Source of the DNA: a virus
Virus record (IMG/VR): IMGVR_UViG_3300022934_003703
Location: 1-21,538 of that record
DNA: 21,538 nt
Strand: one strand, 5' to 3'
The position numbers and the translations under genes were made by a program. A model generated the notes under the pieces. The model was not told where the DNA came from and searched no databases. It worked only from the letters and a program-made list of their open reading frames with translations. Below, piece after piece: positions 1 through 16,920 of the stretch (within the stretch, counting starts at the first letter, position 1; the number at the start of each line of letters is the position of its first letter).

Positions 1-756
1 CAAGGTTGGGTACATCAAAATAGTGGGCGTACCCCTCATTTAATGTTTAGACGTAAAGTAATTAACGAACAGCGTGTACACGGAGGACATACTCTTGCAA
101 TTGACAGTAATTTATTTTTATATAAAAATACTAACAATCCTTTAAAGTATCTTCGTTTTAGTTTAAATGATATATTTCCTACTACTGGCAACTACTTTAC
201 AGACAACGTAGATCCTAATAGATGGAGACAAATTAAACAAGATTATAATATGGATCTTCAACCTTGGAGAGAAAATGGTAATCATATATTAATTTGCTTA
301 CAAAGAAACGGCGGCTGGAGCATGGGCGAAGTTGATGTAATGCAATGGTGTAACTATACGATTAAACGGTTGCGTAAATTTACAGATAGGCCCATTGTAG
401 TTAGGGCGCACCCCGGAGATAGAAGAGCCAAAGACTATTTAAAAATACATTGGCCTAATGTGATTGTAAGTAAAAATCCTAATATAACAGATGATTTTAT
501 TAATTGCTGGGCTGTTATAACGTATAATAGTTCACCTGGTGTTGCAGCAGCAATAGAAGGAATACCTGTATTTGTTACAGATCCCGAACCAAAAGTAAGT
601 CAAGCATACGAAATAGCAAACATAGATTTGAAAAGAATTGAGCAACCAGCAACACCTGATAGAACAGACTGGATTAACAAAATAGCAATGTGTCATTTTA
701 ATTATAAAGACCTAAGTCAGGGTACAGCCTGGAATATTATAAAGGAGTACCTATGA
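1..756 (+). CDS. GT-B-like sugar-transfer protein, 5' end outside window
   Basis: The frame is open from base 1, so the first in-window ATG (43) is probably internal and the gene is partial at its 5' end. The visible 251 residues end in a conserved block: PWRENGNHILIC, then RPIVVRAHPGDRR, then ITYNSSPGVAAAIEGIPVFV. This resembles the nucleotide-sugar-binding half of GT-B glycosyltransferases and capsule-synthesis proteins, where a His-Pro and a Ser-Ser-x-Gly turn line the site. The gene at 2460 has the same blocks in the same order, so the two are paralogs. A role in modifying host surface sugars or virion glycans is inference. The stop overlaps the next start as ATGA, and the AAGGAG before that start lies inside this gene. 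Donor and acceptor cannot be read from the sequence. Confidence 0.6.
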   Translation, partial: QGWVHQNSGRTPHLMFRRKVINEQRVHGGHTLAIDSNLFLYKNTNNPLKYLRFSLNDIFPTTGNYFTDNVDPNRWRQIKQDYNMDLQPWRENGNHILICLQRNGGWSMGEVDVMQWCNYTIKRLRKFTDRPIVVRAHPGDRRAKDYLKIHWPNVIVSKNPNITDDFINCWAVITYNSSPGVAAAIEGIPVFVTDPEPKVSQAYEIANIDLKRIEQPATPDRTDWINKIAMCHFNYKDLSQGTAWNIIKEYL

Positions 757-1565
757 ACACAATTAGTGTAATTACAACTTTTAACAAACGAGGACTAGAA
801 AAATACGGTCAACGTATGATAAACAGTTTTTCTAAAAATTGGCCAAAGAATGTAAAACTATATGTCTATGCAGAAGATTGTGAGCCAACAATTCCTAGCG
901 AGAATGTAATTGTTTTAGATCAAAATTCTACATGTAAAGACTTAGTTAGATTTAAAGAAAAATGGAAAGATGTTCCAAAAGCTAACGGAGATGTTACAAA
1001 GGATCCTATTCGTAGCAGACGTAAAGATGCAGGTAAAGGATTCAAATGGGACGCTGTAAGATTTAGTCACAAAGTTTATTCTATATTCCATTGTGCAGAA
1101 ATATGTAATACTGATTGGTTAATGTGGATGGATGCTGATATGTATTGCCACAGTCCAATTGATTACGAAACTCTACTGTCGTTACATCAAGACGATGCAG
1201 ACTTGTGTTATATTGGGAGAGAACGCAAATGGCCCGAATGCGGACTGTATAGTGTTAATCTAACAACTAAAATGGGCAATATGTTTTTAAAGAAATTTAA
1301 ATGGGTCTACGAAAATGCAGATGACGGTATCTTTCAAATGTCAGAGTGGCACGATAGTTTTGTGTTTGAAGAAGTAAGAAAACAATTAAAAATGAAGTCG
1401 CAAAACTGGGGAGCAGGTATTGTTAGAGGCGAAGGCCATCCTTTGATTAACAGCGTTTGGGGAGCATATTTAGATCATTTAAAGGGCGGCAGAAAAGATG
1501 AAGGTAAAAGTCGTAAAACAGATTTGCTTCGACCTCGGAGCGAAGAATACTGGAGAACAATATGA
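753..1565 (+). CDS. GT-A-fold glycosyltransferase-like protein
   Basis: This 270-residue protein has the layout of a nucleotide-diphospho-sugar transferase. It opens with a beta strand and loop (ISVITTFNKRG). WMDADM sits at about residues 125-130, where D127 and D129 form the DxD motif that binds metal and the sugar nucleotide in GT-A enzymes. A later HLKGG matches a typical C-terminal metal-side histidine. It is clearly related to its downstream neighbour, which has WMDAD in the same place. AAGGAG at 742-747 precedes the ATG, and the start overlaps the upstream stop by four bases. There is no signal peptide or membrane segment, so it should act in the cytoplasm. The sugar and acceptor are unknown. 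Confidence 0.65.
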   Translation: MNTISVITTFNKRGLEKYGQRMINSFSKNWPKNVKLYVYAEDCEPTIPSENVIVLDQNSTCKDLVRFKEKWKDVPKANGDVTKDPIRSRRKDAGKGFKWDAVRFSHKVYSIFHCAEICNTDWLMWMDADMYCHSPIDYETLLSLHQDDADLCYIGRERKWPECGLYSVNLTTKMGNMFLKKFKWVYENADDGIFQMSEWHDSFVFEEVRKQLKMKSQNWGAGIVRGEGHPLINSVWGAYLDHLKGGRKDEGKSRKTDLLRPRSEEYWRTI

Positions 1566-2470
1566 ACGATCAAGTTTGGAGACCAAAGACAAGATATATT
1601 GAAGGACAATTTGTTCAATACGACGATGCATTTTGGAGATGCACGAATTCGCATATTAGTAGCGATTCATTTAATAAAGTTAACTGGGGCAAAGTAAAAA
1701 TCGGGCAAAAGCCTAAGGAAAGAGAAATTATGACAAAAGCAAAATATGAAGTAATAACTAGTATGAATAATACATATTACAATAAAACTGGTCGGCCGTT
1801 CCTAAGAAGTTTTAGCAAATACTTTGGATTTATATGTGACATTCATGTGTACAACGAAGGACTATTTGAACCAAAGGCAAAGAACCTAGTAACCGAAGGT
1901 TGGGATTTAGGTCCTGAATTTGTTAAATTTCAAAAAAGACACAAAAATGAAAAAGTAAAAACATTTGCTAAAAAAGGCTTCAGCATTATACATGCAATGA
2001 ATAATATTGACTGTGATAGATTGATTTGGATGGATGCTGACACATTACTTGTTGAAGACTTTAATACACAGTTGCTCGATATGATTGCTCCTAATGATGT
2101 TCTTAGTACCCATTTTAGTGTGTGGCACGAACATAACGGAAAAGAATATCATAGTTGCGAAACTGGGTTCTTTATTTTAAATAAACGTCATCCAGGATTT
2201 AACGAATTTAAAGATGTATATACACGCATCTATACAAAGGACGAAACTAGTGAACTTAGACGTTTTTATGACGGGGAAGTATATGGCAGAACTGTTGATA
2301 TACTAGCAGCTCGGGGTCATAAAATGCTAAATCTAAATCCAGGAAAACACAAAACACCGTTTAGTAGAAGTGTTATTGGCCCATATATACAACACTTTAA
2401 AGCAGGACTAAAAGAGCGTGTCAACTTTGATGGCATAGAAGCTGAAATGGCTGCGGAAGATGAAGTTTAG
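1562..2470 (+). CDS. GT-A glycosyltransferase with N-terminal CBM5/12-like module
   Basis: 302 residues in two parts. Residues 1-45 resemble a chitin-binding type 3 (CBM5/12) module: W6, Y12 followed by EG, a VQY strand, W25-R-C27, H31, F37 and W42 follow the usual W..Y..G..V.Y..W.C..H....F....W spacing. From about residue 57 a GT-A domain begins, with WMDAD at 156-160 (DxD at D158 and D160) and a C-terminal HFKAG. The upstream neighbour has the GT domain without this module. An in-frame ATG at residue 57 has its own purine-rich leader, so a shorter product is possible. The main start has GGAG six bases upstream and overlaps the previous stop as ATGA. The module probably binds a polysaccharide or glycan acceptor; that is inference. 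Confidence 0.6.
   Translation: MNDQVWRPKTRYIEGQFVQYDDAFWRCTNSHISSDSFNKVNWGKVKIGQKPKEREIMTKAKYEVITSMNNTYYNKTGRPFLRSFSKYFGFICDIHVYNEGLFEPKAKNLVTEGWDLGPEFVKFQKRHKNEKVKTFAKKGFSIIHAMNNIDCDRLIWMDADTLLVEDFNTQLLDMIAPNDVLSTHFSVWHEHNGKEYHSCETGFFILNKRHPGFNEFKDVYTRIYTKDETSELRRFYDGEVYGRTVDILAARGHKMLNLNPGKHKTPFSRSVIGPYIQHFKAGLKERVNFDGIEAEMAAEDEV
1715..1732 (+). promoter_or_regulatory. possible internal ribosome binding site and start
   Basis: AAGGA at 1715-1719 lies 10 bases before an in-frame ATG at 1730. Starting here would give a glycosyltransferase domain of about 246 residues without the carbohydrate-binding module, close to the architecture of the upstream paralog. This is only a sequence-based possibility. 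Confidence 0.3.
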
Positions 2471-3314
2471 TCTATGGACGCAAAATGGCGCACTCAATAG
2501 TAAACCAGTTTTTGATGCCTTTGCTAATGGGCTTATGGCTACTGGTCATGATGTTGTTTGGAATGACAATGTATCTGATGTTGATGTTATTTGGAGTGTT
2601 CTTTGGAATGGTAGAATGGGTCCGAATAAAAATATCTGGCAACGGAACGTGGCACAATCCAAACCGACCGTGGTCTTAGAAGTAGGCGGAATCAAAAGAG
2701 GAACAACATGGAAGGTAGGTTTAAATGGAATCAATAGAGATGCTTTTTTTGGCGATGGCGGTAATGATAGCAGTAGGGCTGAACGACTCGGACTCAGATT
2801 AAAGCCTTGGAATAACAAAGGCGAATACATTTTAATATGTGGCCAACACGATAAAAGTTTACAGTGGCAAGGCATGCCACGTATGAGTACATGGGTAATG
2901 GATACTATTGAAACTATTCAATTACACAGCAAACGACCTATTATATTTCGCCCACATCCTAGATGTAGACTAGATGCAATAGAACACCAATATAAAAATG
3001 TTAGACGACAAGATCCTGTACAGATAGCCGGAACATATGATGATTTTGATATGCGGTTCTCTAATGTATGGGCAACAATAAGTTATTCTAGCAATCCTGG
3101 CATACATAGCATAATTAATGGTATTCCTGCATTTGTAAGCACACATAGTTTAGCATACGAAGCTGCTAATGATATCGACTTTTTACACGATATAGAAAAT
3201 CCTATACGACCTGATAGACAACAATGGTTAAACGACTATGCTTGGACAGAGTTTACCCTAGAAGAAATTTCTACAGGTTTACCTATTAAACGCTTGACTT
3301 CTAAGCTCATTTAA
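2460..3314 (+). CDS. GT-B-like sugar-transfer protein, paralog of the first gene
   Basis: 284 residues, complete. The N-terminal half (LWTQNGALNSKPVFDAFANG, then strands ending in VDVIWSVLW) looks like a Rossmann-type acceptor domain. The C-terminal half holds KPWNNKGEYILIC, RPIIFRPHPRCR, ATISYSSNPGIHSIINGIP and YEAAN, matching the gene at the left edge block for block. This supports a GT-B or capsule-synthesis-like fold. The start at 2460 overlaps the previous gene by 11 bases and has only a weak GGAAG close by, so translation may depend on coupling. The last codons contain the -35 element of the next promoter. A function in sugar transfer is likely; the substrate is not visible. Confidence 0.55.
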   Translation: MKFSLWTQNGALNSKPVFDAFANGLMATGHDVVWNDNVSDVDVIWSVLWNGRMGPNKNIWQRNVAQSKPTVVLEVGGIKRGTTWKVGLNGINRDAFFGDGGNDSSRAERLGLRLKPWNNKGEYILICGQHDKSLQWQGMPRMSTWVMDTIETIQLHSKRPIIFRPHPRCRLDAIEHQYKNVRRQDPVQIAGTYDDFDMRFSNVWATISYSSNPGIHSIINGIPAFVSTHSLAYEAANDIDFLHDIENPIRPDRQQWLNDYAWTEFTLEEISTGLPIKRLTSKLI

Positions 3315-3322
3315 GTTATACT
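3294..3322 (+). promoter_or_regulatory. sigma70-type promoter, near-leaderless
   Basis: TTGACT (3294-3299) and TATACT (3317-3322) are separated by exactly 17 bases. The ATG of the next gene starts at 3329, seven bases after the end of the -10 box, so the predicted transcript would begin at or within a base or two of the start codon. No Shine-Dalgarno sequence is available to that start. The -35 box lies in the last codons of the upstream gene. Confidence 0.7.
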
Positions 3323-3328
3323 ATACGT

Positions 3329-4588
3329 ATGACTAATAAAGCAAACACCATAGAAGATCTTCTTGAAATCTTAGCAGGCCTTGTAAGTGGCCCAAAAATT
3401 GAGATTGATAAATCTGATGCAACTATCATGTATAGTATTGCAAGACAGGTTTTTAAAGGTACTGCATTAACTGATCGACAGTTTGACCTTGTAAAAGAAA
3501 AATTACAATCATATAAAGAACAATATGTTTCATCAGGATATGAATTTGACTTTGCAATTCAAAATTTACGTATGCCCTTACGTGAAATTGATCGCAGCAA
3601 ATATATTAAGATTGTTTCGCATAGTGAAATGGTTGACGATAATATATACGAATCTTACAAGCAAGATTGGAAATGGATTAAAGTAAGATTTCCTTTTAGT
3701 AAAAAACTTATAATAGAAATTGAAAACATTTCAAAAAATCCATCTGAATATTATCATGCTAAAGGATCACACGAACATTACTTTGTATTAAACGAAACTA
3801 CTACCGTATCTATTATTGATGCATTTAAAAATAAAAGTTTTGAAATAGATACAGAATTATTAGATTGGTATGAAAAGATTCAAGAAATGAAAACAAATAA
3901 AAATAATTATGTACCTGGAATATACAATTATAAATTAGAAAATCTCAATGAACGTGCAATCAATTATATGGTATCGAGCCTAGGCAAACCTACAGTTGAT
4001 AATTTGTCTATGTATAAAGATCGTAGTACCAAGTTAGGTCTAGAGTACTTTGACGAAGACGAGTTAGATACTAGTATCAATATGCTTACAACACTGTCAC
4101 AAAAAGTTGTTAGACGAGATAAATCACATGTACTTGTTAACAGTAAACAATTTAATACAAACAATCTTTGTGAAACTCTGCTTGAGCTAGATAGATTTCC
4201 ATTGTTAGTTGTTCTACCAGAAGCAACACCTTTAGAACCATTATATCAAATACATTCTGGATTATCTGGATTCATTGAGTCGTCAGAGTCTAGTGTATTG
4301 TTTAGATTAGATACACATGCAAATTATGAATTTAATTCATATGTTAAACAACATAATCTAAATTCTTCACTTGACAAATCATTGAAAGTAGTGTATATTA
4401 ATAACAATAAAGTACCAAAGCCATTAATTAAATCAGGATGGCAGGCACTTACAGTGTTAATGATGGGGAGTATAAGACCTTCGTCTAATGTTCAAACATA
4501 CATTAACGAAGCAGATTTGGTTATTCATTATGATGAAACTGCAAGTCAAATAATGAGACACCAACACCAAGGAATACAAGAATTATAA
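3329..4588 (+). CDS. unrecognised phage protein upstream of uvsW
   Basis: 419 residues, not assigned to a family. It begins with a helical segment (TIEDLLEILAGLV), followed by KGTALTDRQFDLVKEKL, the kind of short helix-turn motif seen in many phage replication accessory proteins. There is no Walker A motif, zinc cluster, signal peptide or membrane segment. The C-terminal third reads as alternating strands and helices (FPLLVVLPEA, KSLKVVYINN, ADLVIHYDE), suggesting an alpha/beta domain. It has its own promoter, and its stop shares one base with the uvsW start (TAATG), so the two are probably co-expressed. A role in recombination or replication beside UvsW is inference from position only. Confidence 0.6.
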   Translation: MTNKANTIEDLLEILAGLVSGPKIEIDKSDATIMYSIARQVFKGTALTDRQFDLVKEKLQSYKEQYVSSGYEFDFAIQNLRMPLREIDRSKYIKIVSHSEMVDDNIYESYKQDWKWIKVRFPFSKKLIIEIENISKNPSEYYHAKGSHEHYFVLNETTTVSIIDAFKNKSFEIDTELLDWYEKIQEMKTNKNNYVPGIYNYKLENLNERAINYMVSSLGKPTVDNLSMYKDRSTKLGLEYFDEDELDTSINMLTTLSQKVVRRDKSHVLVNSKQFNTNNLCETLLELDRFPLLVVLPEATPLEPLYQIHSGLSGFIESSESSVLFRLDTHANYEFNSYVKQHNLNSSLDKSLKVVYINNNKVPKPLIKSGWQALTVLMMGSIRPSSNVQTYINEADLVIHYDETASQIMRHQHQGIQEL

Positions 4589-6942: not shown

Positions 6943-7599
6943 ATGTTTACAAAACTACTAGAAGGTGTAGACAGAGCACTAGTTACTAAACTAGTAATCT
7001 TACACACATTAGTAATTGCAGTAAGTAATTACTTGGTTACAATTAGATTTGATTTATTCCCAGGAGCAGACTTGCCCTTGTTTGGATCATTTCCATTAGC
7101 GGCGGCAGCGTTTACGTTTCCGATCGTGGTTGTAGCAACTGACCTTACAGTACGTATGGTTGGTAAGGAAGCAGGTCGTGCTGTTGTAGCAATGGCTATT
7201 ATTCCTGCTATTATTGCATCAGTTCTTGTGCTATTAGCATTAGATGATCCACACGCATACAGAGTTGGTTTTGCAAGTGGTACTGCTTATGCTATTGGTA
7301 CAATGCTTGATGTATATGTATTCCAAGCAATCAGAGAACGTTCAAATGCATGGTGGGCAGCTCCGGCGATTTCAACTATCGCGGCTAACATTATTGACAC
7401 ATATTCATTCTTTTATGTGGCGTTTGCAGGTTCGCTTGATGCAGAAGGCAACCTATCATGGATTGGTGCTAACTGGCATGTTGTTGCACAAAACAATACA
7501 CTTACAAAAATTGTAGTTGGATTGATTGTGTTTTTACCAGCATACGGTGTATTACTACGTTACCTAAAAAGTAAAATGAGCGATACACAGGCAGGTTAA
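6943..7599 (+). CDS. yhhQ: YhhQ/VUT-family queuosine-precursor transporter
   Basis: 218 residues, near the usual length of E. coli YhhQ (about 220). It is strongly hydrophobic with about six membrane segments. Family hallmarks in order: FTFPIVVVATDLTVR, YRVGFASGTAYAIGTMLDVY, VFQAIRER, WWAAPAISTIAANIIDTYSF, and a C-terminal KIVVGLIVFLPAYGVLL. YhhQ imports preQ0 and preQ1, precursors of queuosine in tRNA and of 7-deazaguanine bases in DNA. Some phages carry 7-deazaguanine genes that protect their DNA from host restriction, and YhhQ homologs have been reported in phages. No QueC, QueD, QueE, QueF, FolE, DpdA or Tgt gene is visible in this window. The start follows the cupin stop by three bases, with AAGGA 12 bases upstream. 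Confidence 0.85.
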   Translation: MFTKLLEGVDRALVTKLVILHTLVIAVSNYLVTIRFDLFPGADLPLFGSFPLAAAAFTFPIVVVATDLTVRMVGKEAGRAVVAMAIIPAIIASVLVLLALDDPHAYRVGFASGTAYAIGTMLDVYVFQAIRERSNAWWAAPAISTIAANIIDTYSFFYVAFAGSLDAEGNLSWIGANWHVVAQNNTLTKIVVGLIVFLPAYGVLLRYLKSKMSDTQAG

Positions 7600-8141: not shown

Positions 8142-8376
8142 GGCATTGATATACGAACGTGCAAACGGAGTAGTATATGCTCATTATCGAGACAAGCCTG
8201 AAATTCCTCGTTGGATTGTTGGAGGTGATCCGGGTGCTGTAGCAAGAGCACAAGGTAGATTATTAGACTATGGTGAATGGCTAAACTTATGTGATTTAGC
8301 AGAAACACACCCAACAATAAAAAAACAAATGGATAAGTTAGTAACAACGTATTATCTAGTAAAGGACAGTAAATGA
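8107..8376 (+). CDS. small unrecognised phage protein
   Basis: 89 residues. The core reads KLIPGEALIYERANGVVYA followed by a KPEIPRWIVGGD and an alanine-rich helix (PGAVARAQGRL), then YGEWLNL. The pattern is a beta hairpin and helices in a small folded protein, with no catalytic motif I can name. Two adjacent ATG codons (8107 and 8110) are both possible starts; the choice changes one residue. It overlaps the methyltransferase by 35 bases in a different frame, and its stop overlaps the kdsA start as ATGA. AAGGA at 8362-8366, inside this gene, serves kdsA. The overlaps on both sides and the protein-like composition make it a real gene rather than a shadow. Confidence 0.65.
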   Translation: MMSQSKKLIPGEALIYERANGVVYAHYRDKPEIPRWIVGGDPGAVARAQGRLLDYGEWLNLCDLAETHPTIKKQMDKLVTTYYLVKDSK

Positions 8377-9146
8377 GAATAATTGCAGGACCATGTCAAC
8401 ATGAATCAATAGAACAAAGTTTAGAAATTGCAAAAGAATGTAAACGAGTGTGTGATAAACTAGGCATTGAATATTATTTTAAAGCAAGTTTTGATAAAGC
8501 AAATCGTACAAGTCTAAACAGTAAACGTGGCATAGGGTTGCCGCAGTTTATTAGAGATATGGATAAGATTAAAGAGCAGATTCCTAATTTAAAAATATTA
8601 ACAGACGTGCATGAAAAACAACATGTTTATACTATTACTAGTGTTGATGCAAGCATTGATGTATTACAGATTCCTGCATTCTTATGTCGTCAAACAGATC
8701 TAATTAGAGCTGCTTGTGATAGTGGACGCATTGTAAATATTAAAAAAGGACAGTTCTTAGCACCTTGGGACGTAGAAGGTATCCTTTCAAAAACAGAAGG
8801 TGCTGAAGAAGTATGGATAACAGAGAGAGGTACAAGTTTTGGTTATAATACCCTTGTTGTTGATTTTACTGGTCTCAATTATATGCTTGACAACTATAGC
8901 GTTCCTATTTTTCTGGATGCTACCCATTCCGTACAAAAGCCAGGAGGAAATGGAACGAGCTCTGGCGGCAATCGTGATTACGTGCCTGGTCTTACTCGTG
9001 CCGCTTCTGCTTTGGGAATTAATAACTTTTTTCTAGAGGTACATGGTGATCCAGATAATGCACCAAGTGATGGACCTAACATGATCAAACTAATACATTT
9101 TGAAAGGATAGTACGTGACATCGTCAGCCATTCTTATTCCCGCTAG
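8373..9146 (+). CDS. kdsA: 3-deoxy-8-phosphooctulonate (KDO-8-P) synthase
   Basis: 257 residues, slightly short for KdsA (about 280). It condenses phosphoenolpyruvate with arabinose-5-phosphate to make KDO-8-phosphate. Signatures in order: IIAGPCQHES, YYFKASFDKANRTS, LKILTDVHE, LQIPAFLCRQTDL, NIKKGQFLAPWD, ERGTSFGYN, FLDATHSVQKPGG and EVHGDPDNAPSDGPNM. Cys8 replaces the asparagine found in the E. coli enzyme at this place; the family's metal-dependent class has cysteine here, so this copy is probably metal-dependent (inference). AAGGA sits six bases before the ATG. The kdsB gene overlaps its end by 32 bases. KdsC phosphatase and KdsD isomerase are absent from the window, so the host presumably supplies those steps. 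Confidence 0.93.
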   Translation: MRIIAGPCQHESIEQSLEIAKECKRVCDKLGIEYYFKASFDKANRTSLNSKRGIGLPQFIRDMDKIKEQIPNLKILTDVHEKQHVYTITSVDASIDVLQIPAFLCRQTDLIRAACDSGRIVNIKKGQFLAPWDVEGILSKTEGAEEVWITERGTSFGYNTLVVDFTGLNYMLDNYSVPIFLDATHSVQKPGGNGTSSGGNRDYVPGLTRAASALGINNFFLEVHGDPDNAPSDGPNMIKLIHFERIVRDIVSHSYSR

Positions 9147-9804
9147 ATACGGGTCAACACGCTACCCTGCAAAGCCTCTAGCTATGTTAGATGGCGTTCC
9201 TATGATTAGACGTGTGTATGACGCTTGTATTGCGTCTAAGATACCAACATACGTGCTTACTGATAATAAGACTATTGCACAATGTATTCAAAGTGCAGGC
9301 GGTAAAGTTTACATAGACTCAAAAGATTATGCTAATGGTACAGAACGTTGTGCTGGTGCAATAAAAAGTAGTTTGTTCGACGAGTATGATAATTTTATAA
9401 ATGTGCAAGGTGACATGCCAGATGTAACTATTGATATAATTGAAAAAGTAAAATGGCATTTGCAACACTACCCTGTAACAACTGTATGGACTGAAATGCC
9501 CGAAGAAAAACAAAATGATCCTAACTCGGTTAAAATGGTACGTGCAGGAGATCAGTGTTTATGGTTTGGTAGAGGTATGACAGGATACGGCAATTGGCAT
9601 CTAGGCGTATACGGTTATCGGCGTAATGCTCTTGAAATGTATCCTACACTTGAAATTGAAAAAGAAGAAACTATTGAGCAACTAGAACAACTTCGCTGGC
9701 TCAAAAATGGTTGGCAAATAGGTTGTTTGAGTGTACAATATAATGGAGTAGAAATAAACACTCCCGAGGATGTAAACGAATGGCTAAACAAACACTCCCA
9801 GTAA
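9115..9804 (+). CDS. kdsB: CMP-KDO synthetase, GTG start
   Basis: 229 residues, a little shorter than the usual 245-250. KdsB activates KDO with CTP to CMP-KDO, the donor used by KDO transferases. IPARYGSTRYPAKPL (8-22) is the nucleotide-binding loop. NGTERCAGA, FINVQGDMPDV, YGYRRNALEMYP, EQLEQLRWLKNGW and GVEINTPEDVNEW follow in the family order. The usual GDEP reads GDMP here: the aspartate is kept and the glutamate is lost. The start is GTG at 9115, inside kdsA, chosen because IPAR must lie near the N-terminus and AAGGA lies upstream at proper distance. With kdsA it forms a two-gene KDO unit. Chance annotation as a generic nucleotidyltransferase is unlikely given the number of matches. Confidence 0.92.
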   Translation: MTSSAILIPARYGSTRYPAKPLAMLDGVPMIRRVYDACIASKIPTYVLTDNKTIAQCIQSAGGKVYIDSKDYANGTERCAGAIKSSLFDEYDNFINVQGDMPDVTIDIIEKVKWHLQHYPVTTVWTEMPEEKQNDPNSVKMVRAGDQCLWFGRGMTGYGNWHLGVYGYRRNALEMYPTLEIEKEETIEQLEQLRWLKNGWQIGCLSVQYNGVEINTPEDVNEWLNKHSQ

Positions 9805-12435: not shown

Positions 12436-12604
12436 ACTAAAGGACGGCACTGAAGTACAAGAGTTGTCAGAAGCAGTAGAACTCAAAGTTGTTACAAAGT
12501 GTCCTAACAAATGGAAGTTAGTTGATATGGAAACTGGCGAAGAGTATGTCGGTAACCGTCCTGATGAACATAATATGTTTTGGAAAAAAATAAACGATGC
12601 CTGA
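12428..12604 (+). CDS. 58-residue phage protein, TTG start
   Basis: Small gene between the deformylase and the DnaE-like gene, easily missed because its start is TTG. It begins at 12428 with GGAG at 12417-12420, seven bases upstream, and ends with TGA at 12602-12604. The product contains VTKCPNKWKLVDMETGEEYV and ends in FWKKINDA; it reads as two or three beta strands, acidic in the middle, with no catalytic motif. It overlaps the deformylase by eight bases and the next gene by eight bases (the ATG of that gene lies in its last codons), so all three are probably translated together. The function is unknown. Confidence 0.6.
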   Translation: MRKLKDGTEVQELSEAVELKVVTKCPNKWKLVDMETGEEYVGNRPDEHNMFWKKINDA

Positions 12605-15353: not shown

Positions 15354-15442
15354 AAGATTTTATAACATGGCCGTGGCGCAAATATAAAGCCTGGAAGAAA
15401 AGAAAAGAAATACAAGAACGGGATCCTTTTATCTACAAATGA
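15341..15442 (+). CDS. 33-residue basic microprotein
   Basis: ATG at 15341, TGA at 15440-15442, overlapping the primase end and, as ATGA, the carbamoyltransferase start. The product starts MVWLKDFITWPWRKYKAW, has a lysine-rich middle and ends RDPFIYK. An amphipathic, tryptophan-rich N-terminus suggests membrane-surface or protein binding. I recall short proteins with a similar C-terminal DP-aromatic-YK ending in marine T4-like phages; this memory is unverified. The tight fit between two clear genes in the same direction supports reality. Confidence 0.55.
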   Translation: MVWLKDFITWPWRKYKAWKKRKEIQERDPFIYK

Positions 15443-16920
15443 TTACTTGGGGAATAAGTGCAAACAGTCATGATGCTTCTCTAGCCGTGTTTACAAACAC
15501 AGGAGTAGAGTTTGCGAGTCATAGTGAGCGATTTAGTGGTGTTAAAAATGACCCGCATCTAAATCAAGGATTAATTAATCATGCATTAAAATGGGGAGAG
15601 CCTGATGAAATTATTTGGTACGAACGGCCTTTTAGAAAGAGCCTTAGACAACTTAGAGCAGGACAAGGTTGGAATTTTAGAGAAAATAATATACGCAGTT
15701 ATCTTAGGTCCTACGGCATTACTGCTCCTATTAGTTACACTAGCCATCACCATAGTCATGCTGCCGCTGGTTATTACACTAGTCCTTTCCGTGATGCTAC
15801 TATTGTATGTCTTGATAGCATTGGAGAATTTGAAACTTTTACAGTTTGGGAAGGCAAGGATGATGTTCTAAAGAAACGTTACAGTCAAGGGTACCCTAAC
15901 AGTTTAGGTTTATGGTACAGTGCAATGACACAACGTATAGGACTCAAGCCTAATGAGGATGAATATATTCTTATGGGTATGGCTGCATACGGCGACTATA
16001 TGAAATACTATGGGGACATTATAAACGACTTCTTTACTAAATTGCCTGACAGTAAAGGATTAAAGATTAAATTCAAACACAATTTACACCGAGGGTGTAA
16101 GTGGTGGCGTCCTGATCTTACTACAGAACAAGACATGTTTGACATAGCTGCTGCTACCCAAAAGGTATATGAGGTACTGTTCGAACGAATAATACGCATA
16201 GTTTCATCTAAATACAAAAGTCGTAATCTTGTTCTTATGGGTGGGTGTGCATTAAATTGTTCAGCAAACAGTATAGCACAGAAGTATTTCCAGCACGTAT
16301 GGATTATGCCCAATCCGGGTGATGCAGGGTCAAGCATAGGCGGACCGCTTGCCCATATGAAAAAACACATAGCATGGAAGCACCCTTACCTAGGGTATAA
16401 CATAGAAGGAGAATACCCTGTTGAAGAAATCATCCAAGAACTCAAAACCACCGGAATATGTGGAGTCGCTAACGGCGGTGCTGAATACGGTCCTCGTGCT
16501 TTTGGTAATCGTAGCCTTCTTGCTGATCCCCGCGGCAAAGATATTAAAGACAGAGTCAACGACATCAAACAACGACAAAAGTTTAGACCCTTTGCACCAG
16601 CCGTACTTGCCGAGTCCGCCGGAGATTACTTCGACGGTTTTGCCTCCCCTTACATGCAATACACCTCTGTGTGTAAACGCCCAGATGAGTTTCCCGCCAT
16701 AGTACACGCCGACGGAACTAGTAGGGTACAACTAGTAATGCCTAATACCCAAGGTACAGGCTTTAGAAAACTATTAAAAGCATGGGAAGAAGAAACAGGA
16801 TGTCCTATGCTACTAAACACTAGCCTAAATATTAAAGGCAAACCTATGGTAAATGACTTGACAGATGCTCAAGAATTTGCTACAATGTATAAAACAAAAG
16901 TATTTACAGGATCGAAATGA
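15439..16920 (+). CDS. NodU/CmcH-family carbamoyltransferase
   Basis: 493 residues. The N-terminal Kae1-like domain has GISANSHDASLAV, SERFSGVKND, SHHHSHAAAGYYTSPF and CLDSIGEFETFTVW, with histidines that bind metal. NEDEYILMGMAAYG and MGGCALNCSAN complete it. The C-terminal YrdC-like domain has GGAEYGPRAFGNRSLLADPR and FAPAVLAE. Members transfer a carbamoyl group from carbamoyl phosphate through carbamoyl-adenylate to a hydroxyl group, as in nodulation factors, cephamycins and tobramycin. The target in phages is unclear: a glycan or a hydroxymethylated DNA base are both possible. It lies between primase and replicative helicase. Its last codons contain the helicase promoter. Confidence 0.88.
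   Translation: MITWGISANSHDASLAVFTNTGVEFASHSERFSGVKNDPHLNQGLINHALKWGEPDEIIWYERPFRKSLRQLRAGQGWNFRENNIRSYLRSYGITAPISYTSHHHSHAAAGYYTSPFRDATIVCLDSIGEFETFTVWEGKDDVLKKRYSQGYPNSLGLWYSAMTQRIGLKPNEDEYILMGMAAYGDYMKYYGDIINDFFTKLPDSKGLKIKFKHNLHRGCKWWRPDLTTEQDMFDIAAATQKVYEVLFERIIRIVSSKYKSRNLVLMGGCALNCSANSIAQKYFQHVWIMPNPGDAGSSIGGPLAHMKKHIAWKHPYLGYNIEGEYPVEEIIQELKTTGICGVANGGAEYGPRAFGNRSLLADPRGKDIKDRVNDIKQRQKFRPFAPAVLAESAGDYFDGFASPYMQYTSVCKRPDEFPAIVHADGTSRVQLVMPNTQGTGFRKLLKAWEEETGCPMLLNTSLNIKGKPMVNDLTDAQEFATMYKTKVFTGSK
16858..16886 (+). promoter_or_regulatory. sigma70-type promoter of the helicase gene
   Basis: TTGACA (16858-16863), a perfect -35 consensus, and TACAAT (16881-16886) are 17 bases apart, inside the last codons of the carbamoyltransferase gene. 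A start near 16893 would leave a leader of about 24 bases, with AGGA before the ATG at 16917. Unlike the other two promoters, this one gives a leader and a ribosome site. Confidence 0.6.

Follow-up and report, generated by a model that had tools for sequence, protein, structure and literature searches.

In a 21,538-base virus record (the window, meaning the whole stretch of DNA analyzed here), which contains the phage replication genes for helicases, a primase and a polymerase piece, the gene GTA2 encodes a predicted GT-A glycosyltransferase that carries a CBM5/12-type module at its N terminus. The module-glycosyltransferase fusion is a new domain arrangement made of known parts, and a search of open-licence PMC papers found no paper on it. 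We hypothesize that GTA2 works within a glycan cassette conserved in aquatic phages; that its module was gained in two small lineages and is of a type carried by very large open reading frames (ORFs) of related phages; that the module, held on a flexible linker, would dock the enzyme to its acceptor, either the growing glycan or a virion protein under glycosylation; and, with less assurance, that a surviving ancestral ribosome site may still yield some module-free enzyme, as a relic and not as a regulated switch. We give this explanation as a whole a probability of about 0.6. Our analysis established the predicted fold, showed that independent contigs share the fusion and placed the ancestral start at Met57. 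The features of the region are as follows.

Positions 43 to 756, + strand: GTB1, a conserved cassette neighbor whose actual start precedes the window (compare contig L003).
Positions 753 to 1565, + strand: GTA1, the paralog upstream of GTA2, without the module (ORF, Pfam, hhalign).
Positions 1552 to 1555, + strand: GGAG, a Shine-Dalgarno-like site for the first start, with a 6-nt gap to ATG 1562 (-6.4 kcal/mol).
Positions 1562 to 1565, + strand: ATGA overlap, seen in the sequence, between the GTA2 start and the GTA1 stop.
Positions 1562 to 2470, + strand: GTA2, module plus glycosyltransferase, an ORF of 302 amino acids with an ATG start (AlphaFold2 pLDDT 91.4).
Positions 1562 to 1699, + strand: CBM5/12-fold module, residues 1 to 46 (approximate; Pfam CBM_5_12, profile match 1ed7, fold match).
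Positions 1700 to 1741, + strand: flexible linker, residues 47 to 60, little conserved in the alignments (residues 48 to 53 with pLDDT < 50).
Positions 1715 to 1719, + strand: AAGGA, a Shine-Dalgarno-like site 5' of the internal ATG, with a 10-nt gap to ATG 1730 (-6.0 kcal/mol).
Positions 1730 to 1732, + strand: internal in-frame ATG (Met57), at the ancestral glycosyltransferase start position (aligned with GTA1 Met1 and with module-free starts).
Positions 1730 to 2467, + strand: GT-A domain with an invariant DxD at residues 158 to 160 (alignment, AlphaFold2 model, fold match).
Positions 2460 to 3314, + strand: GTB2, a conserved cassette neighbor (of the 21 relatives that were scanned, 1 resembles Capsule_synth).

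GTA2 thus sits between GTA1 and GTB2. Residues 6 to 35 of its product match Pfam CBM_5_12, and residues 1 to 56 alone match this family (PF02839) with an E-value of 1.3e-5 and 25.5 bits, 0.7 bit under the curated cut-off of 26.2 bits. CBM_5_12 was the top family for the modules of all seven relatives examined (best E-value, 8.8e-8), six of which (L010, L011, L012, L031, L034 and L042) passed the cut-off with 29.1 to 32.5 bits, while the module of L004 scored 21.6 bits and stayed under it. The residues W6, Y12, H31, S33, F37 and K39 are invariant in an alignment of eight modules (A3), which as a profile retrieved Vibrio chitin deacetylases (3.9e-8) and the chitin-binding domain of ChiA1, 1ed7 (2.8e-7); a single-sequence search of solved structures with the whole protein gave weak matches (1ed7 at an E-value of 1.3).

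Modelled alone with AlphaFold2, the module (pLDDT 81) is predicted to adopt the small all-beta fold of chitin-binding domains. Foldseek matched this model to a contractile-injection baseplate, the fibres of phage 7-7-1, ChiA1 and deacetylases with E-values of about 0.01 and a probability of 1.00, with no match at an E-value of ≤0.001 (best, 0.009). For 1ed7 the TM values were 0.62/0.75 (E-value, 0.014), and VIA-align gave a Z of 5.0 (rmsd 1.6, 40 aligned). Higher VIA-align scores were obtained with the baseplate of phage Milano, 8fqc (Z 7.5, rmsd 1.6, 47 aligned), and the fibre of phage 7-7-1, 9rkv (Z 7.2, rmsd 1.5, 47 aligned), and these domains are, together with that of the Anabaena injection system (7b5h), among the best fold matches. 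Because unrelated T4 head chains also score (Z 5.7 to 6.5, rmsd 2.2 to 2.5), the fold match by itself is not specific, and we base the assignment on sequence and fold jointly. Together they support the prediction that the module is of the CBM5/12 type and kin to phage fibre modules.

In phages, modules of this sort are usually part of tail proteins. The likeness of the GTA2 module to 1ed7 and the Vibrio chitin deacetylases consists of profile and fold over its first two thirds, but the known modules belong to hydrolases and deacetylases, whereas that of GTA2 is found on a glycosyltransferase. Unlike the domains of phage fibres and baseplates, it is a single copy that fronts an enzyme.

The remainder of GTA2 is, in the full-length AlphaFold2 model, a GT-A fold with a DxD motif; only residues 48 to 53 are poorly predicted. 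D158 and D160 are invariant among the 54 relatives that make up the rows of the AlphaFold alignment (A4). The glycosyltransferase part matches GlyE (Z 15.1, rmsd 3.2, 196 aligned); LARGE1, glycogenin, LgtC and, at a Z of 13.5, the PBCV-1 capsid glycosyltransferase 2p73 also match, and the first Foldseek match of the GTA2 model is an alpha-1,3-galactosyltransferase (E-value, 3.3e-7). GTA2 has the fold (Z 13 to 15, rmsd 3 to 4) and the DxD in common with these six structures, but the identity is only 10 to 16%. LgtC, glycogenin, GlyE, LARGE1 and the galactosyltransferase are enzymes of the GT8 and GT6 types. Because Pfam GT8 (PF01501; 11 of the 54 members at an E-value of ≤0.1, best 5.8e-4) and GT2 (12 of 54) both match subsets of the alignment, we leave the family assignment open. 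GTA2 itself (P0001) had no glycosyltransferase match in Pfam at an E-value of ≤10, and a PDB profile search with the glycosyltransferase alignment (E-value ≤1) returned nothing useful. The first-pass annotation, made from the DNA letters, had described a CBM5/12 module fused to a GT-A domain, absent from the upstream paralog and similar to modules of phage fibres. All of this held up, including the last two points: GTA1 is a paralog by hhalign and has no CBM match in Pfam, and the resemblance to fibre modules appears both in the fold matches and in the module copies within large ORFs described below.

The first three models in BFVD are an uncultured Caudovirales protein (E-value, 5.9e-15), followed by proteins of Tetraselmis virus 1 and Synechococcus phage S-SCSM1. 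Many aquatic phage contigs contain the cassette. When 50,697 phage records were searched, relatives of its two GT-A genes (E-value ≤1e-5) occurred in just two, those of Pelagibacter phage Mosig and podovirus ct7QV12. The glycosyltransferases of these two phages are nearer to GTA1 (34% and 29%) than to GTA2 (23% and 27%), and the module lies outside the matches. Megablast found no match of the window to phages, GTA2 matched no PHROGs family at an E-value of ≤10, and a profile search of genome contigs with A4 (137 stretches) found no relative.

How did the enzyme acquire its module? A scan of viral contigs yielded 90 relatives, and among the best 80 of these 90 loci the module fronts the glycosyltransferase in 10 and is absent from 70; the module is thus dispensable for the basic reaction. 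The 10 module-bearing contigs hold 8 distinct sequences (with the near-identical L032, L034 and L042 counted as three) among the 61 distinct sequences of the main tree, where they occupy two places, one with L003 (the window's gene), L005, L010, L011 and L012 (support 92/90) and the other with L032, L034 and L042 (100/100). One origin was not rejected by an AU test with 59 sequences in which the module bearers form a single clade (p 0.065). A second scan, with the full module-bearing proteins and centred on a different one of them, gave 104 relatives; judged by the matched residues, no further module-bearing contig was present among the best 80 of these 104. Among the new contigs, the module-profile scan covered L163, while the judgement on L134 and L136 is by matched residues. 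Residues 1 to 56 alone matched a single, near-identical contig. A free-standing module ORF was absent from 82 records (646,810 bases; one weak match, in L046, with an E-value of 0.03), so that no split intermediate is seen.

The start positions of the relatives show where the module joined the enzyme. The GTA1 and GTA2 families align by hhalign with 99.7% probability (E-value, 1.5e-25), and the alignment begins with Met57 opposite Met1 of GTA1. Module-free enzymes start at the Met57 position or no more than about ten residues away from it, with their starts taken by script as the nearest upstream Met, and in the module-free L006, L007 and L008 the glycosyltransferase start and the upstream gene overlap in ATGA. 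Because the module-free relatives and the paralog start at or near ATG 1730, this codon is the ancestral start. As the simplest history, we hypothesize that module DNA was inserted in frame where the former stop of the upstream gene met the former glycosyltransferase start, and that it then took over the junction with GTA1. The junction is shared by the near-identical contig L003. The same contig differs from the window by two close residue changes near the start of GTB2 (GLMATGH in the window, GAMANGH in L003).

A possible source of the module is found in the same group of phages. The A3 profile detected two further module copies in a 4,811-amino-acid ORF of each of the records G008 and G009, and it matched in 5 of 25 records whose glycosyltransferase is module-free. 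Module arrays are present in ORFs of 1,812 and 2,698 amino acids in G023, of 1,831 and 3,100 in G026 and of 2,900 and 382 in G030; G033 has a single copy in an ORF of 5,195 amino acids, and G028 one short, doubtful match. Many records are fragments, and hence the absence of the module elsewhere says little. By their size and their arrays, the very large ORFs probably encode tail or adhesion (virion) proteins, and most simply the module on the glycosyltransferase would be a shuffled copy. In the likeliest history, shuffling joined a virion-type module to a glycosyltransferase belonging to the conserved glycan cassette of these phages. In the contigs L164 and L168 to L177 (G009, G023, G026, G030 and G033), up to seven CBM5/12-like matches occur per ORF segment.

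Once acquired, the module appears to have been kept under constraint. By the Nei-Gojobori method, the module has a dN of 0.042 and a dS of 0.149 between L032 and L042 (ratio, 0.28), 0.038 and 0.280 between L032 and L034 (0.14), and 0.038 and 0.173 between L034 and L042 (0.22); these low ratios come from one close trio with few changes. Distant pairs (L004/L034, dN 0.900 and dS 2.404; L010/L011, 0.616 and 0.988; window/L011, 0.806 and 0.909) have ratios of 0.37 to 0.89 with dS near saturation, and dS is saturated for window/L004, L011/L012 and L010/L012. Between L011 and L012, 87% of the module residues are identical while 84% of the synonymous sites differ. The module evolves faster than the glycosyltransferase part in every pair in which both could be measured. 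The conserved residues and these rates indicate a constraint that is real but moderate. A binding module that is probably of virion type moved onto a phage glycosyltransferase and was retained in two small lineages, while most of the relatives examined are without it, and the module-bearing and module-free enzymes provide a natural comparison of what the module contributes.

What does the module bind? The chitin-binding surface of CBM5 requires a conserved Y-W or W-W aromatic pair (PMC8449059). No such pair is present in any of the eight aligned modules, and the putative binding-site tryptophan of ChiA1 (CBM12 type), at index 33 of 1ed7 (687 by residue numbers), is replaced by phenylalanine in 8 of 8. 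Judging by its title, a ChiA1 study reportedly names Trp687 together with Gln679. Because the pair is missing and Phe stands at the Trp687 position, chitin binding should not be assumed, although an aromatic residue is kept; chitin is a doubtful ligand of the GTA2 module. Inspection of the GTA2 sequence shows no hydrophobic stretch at the N terminus, and the enzyme is probably cytoplasmic. The earlier suggestion of a polysaccharide-tethered enzyme, in the sense known from chitinases, is not supported by these data. By analogy with the auxiliary modules of other carbohydrate enzymes, it is more likely that the module docks the enzyme to its acceptor.

The same observations are also consistent with a different role, in which a CBM5/12 fold that has lost sugar binding serves as a protein-protein docking or folding aid and touches GTA1 or a virion protein. 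We consider this possible, if tentative: the altered aromatic positions point to it, the fold also occurs in chains of phage baseplates and injection systems, and GTA1 lies directly 5' of GTA2 in all 10 module-bearing loci but in only 27 of the 70 module-free loci (best 80 of 90), a contrast that depends on two clades and includes some incomplete loci. However, the aromatic Phe that is invariant in the eight modules would suit a glycan-stacking surface. It is improbable that the module on the glycosyltransferase and those on the giant tail proteins reflect a common glycan or joint assembly, combined with a tethered and a free enzyme made via the internal start. Still far less probable is an artefact, be it the chance CBM-like look of an unrelated N terminus or an assembly chimera; the scores of the window and L004 slightly under the Pfam cut-off would fit this explanation, but six other relatives exceed the cut-off, the same fusion is present in other contigs, and the fold is confidently predicted and matched. 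Docking to the acceptor is the reading that we prefer.

The first-pass annotation had also proposed that an in-frame ATG at 1730 with AAGGA before it could give a second product without the module. The ATG and the AAGGA are where it placed them, so that a start codon with a ribosome site does lie in frame inside GTA2, and the site is well formed in the window gene and in L004/L005. The genes of the window contain 123 ATGs that are internal and in frame, and only three of these, counting 1730 itself, pair with the 16S tail as strongly as 1730 does, which goes beyond chance. The other two are at 15973 and 6577, and ATG 6577 lies 6 nt past a real start and uses the ribosome site of that start. 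Pairing as strong is found at 9 of 23 gene starts, a set that leaves out position 43, whose gene begins outside the window, as well as 10200 and 11317, neither of which is a start codon. In terms of accessibility, 6 of 114 internal ATGs (1730 included) and 3 of the 23 gene starts are as open as 1730, which is as open as or more open than 20 of the 23. The predicted short form matches the module-free relatives in extent. Among the 8 distinct module-bearing genes, 4 have ATG or TTG at the internal site, including L004 (ATG, -7.4 kcal/mol), L011 (ATG, -5.5 kcal/mol) and L012 (TTG, -5.1 kcal/mol), and the other four do not: L010 has Ile at this place, with an ATG six codons earlier that pairs weakly (-0.9), and the linkers of L031/L032, L034 and L042 hold no ATG, GTG or TTG. 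Since the internal start is missing in half of these genes, the fusion does not invariably carry it.

One explanation of this pattern is a selected dual-product gene. The long form would be held at the acceptor via the module, initiation at ATG 1730 would give a free short form, and translation coupling together with the internal ribosome site would set the ratio of the two; this explanation is compatible with the others. Site strength, openness, the matching extent of the short form and the start kept in L004, L011 and L012 argue for it, as does the rarity of equally strong sites when the eight codons 5' of the start are recoded synonymously in L011 (2%) and L012 (4%). The corresponding values are 20% in the window and 22% in L004, however, the site is lacking in the other four genes, and a relic of an ancestral site accounts for the same pattern. 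We regard a selected switch as rather unlikely. Of the second product proposed earlier, the well-formed site and its ancestral position stand, and its absence from half of the module-bearing genes speaks against it. In our reading, the internal site is competent, inherited and perhaps still used, and as a selected feature it is unproven. From what the DNA suggests, two products of the GTA2 gene are plausible but unproven, and there is about one chance in three that the short product is made at a useful level. GTA2 is a clean case in which to ask whether ancestral start codons continue to be used after gene fusion.

The cassette itself, in the order GTB1', GTB1, (GTA1), GTA2, GTB2 and a 419-amino-acid ORF, recurs in aquatic phage contigs (positions 43 to 4588 in the window). 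Among the best 80 of 90 loci, some of them incomplete, GTB1 or its paralog GTB1' is present in 74, GTB2 in 68 and the 419-amino-acid ORF in 47. GTB1, judged by its look alone, is a probable GT-B enzyme and has no Pfam match at an E-value of ≤10. The Capsule_synth similarity of the GTB2 family has an E-value of 9.7e-4; GTB2 is matched in part by 16 phage records, most of them from Caulobacter phages, and its PDB profile search gave nothing useful (best E-value, 0.8). The likely setting is a phage-made glycan for the virion or the host surface.

Other genes of the window touch on the same theme. Positions 8373 to 9804 hold kdsA (E-value 1.7e-99, above the NCBIfam cut-offs) and an overlapping kdsB-like gene, whose best score is 180 against a cut-off of 193. 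KdsA and KdsB are enzymes of CMP-Kdo synthesis, and the window may contain a phage-borne CMP-Kdo route. Genes for CMP-Kdo synthesis are annotated in Synechococcus phage S-SCSM2R, and a study of surface sea water reports them among the auxiliary genes of viruses (PMC10653327). The NodU-like gene at positions 15439 to 16920 is matched over residues 251 to 481 (129 bits, far under the equivalog cut-off) and probably encodes a carbamoyltransferase relative. At positions 6943 to 7599 the phage carries a gene of the queuosine-precursor transporter family (TIGR00697, above the cut-off). The DNA polymerase piece of 186 amino acids at positions 12597 to 13157 matches phrog_11778 over nearly its full length, and the polymerase may thus be split across separate genes.
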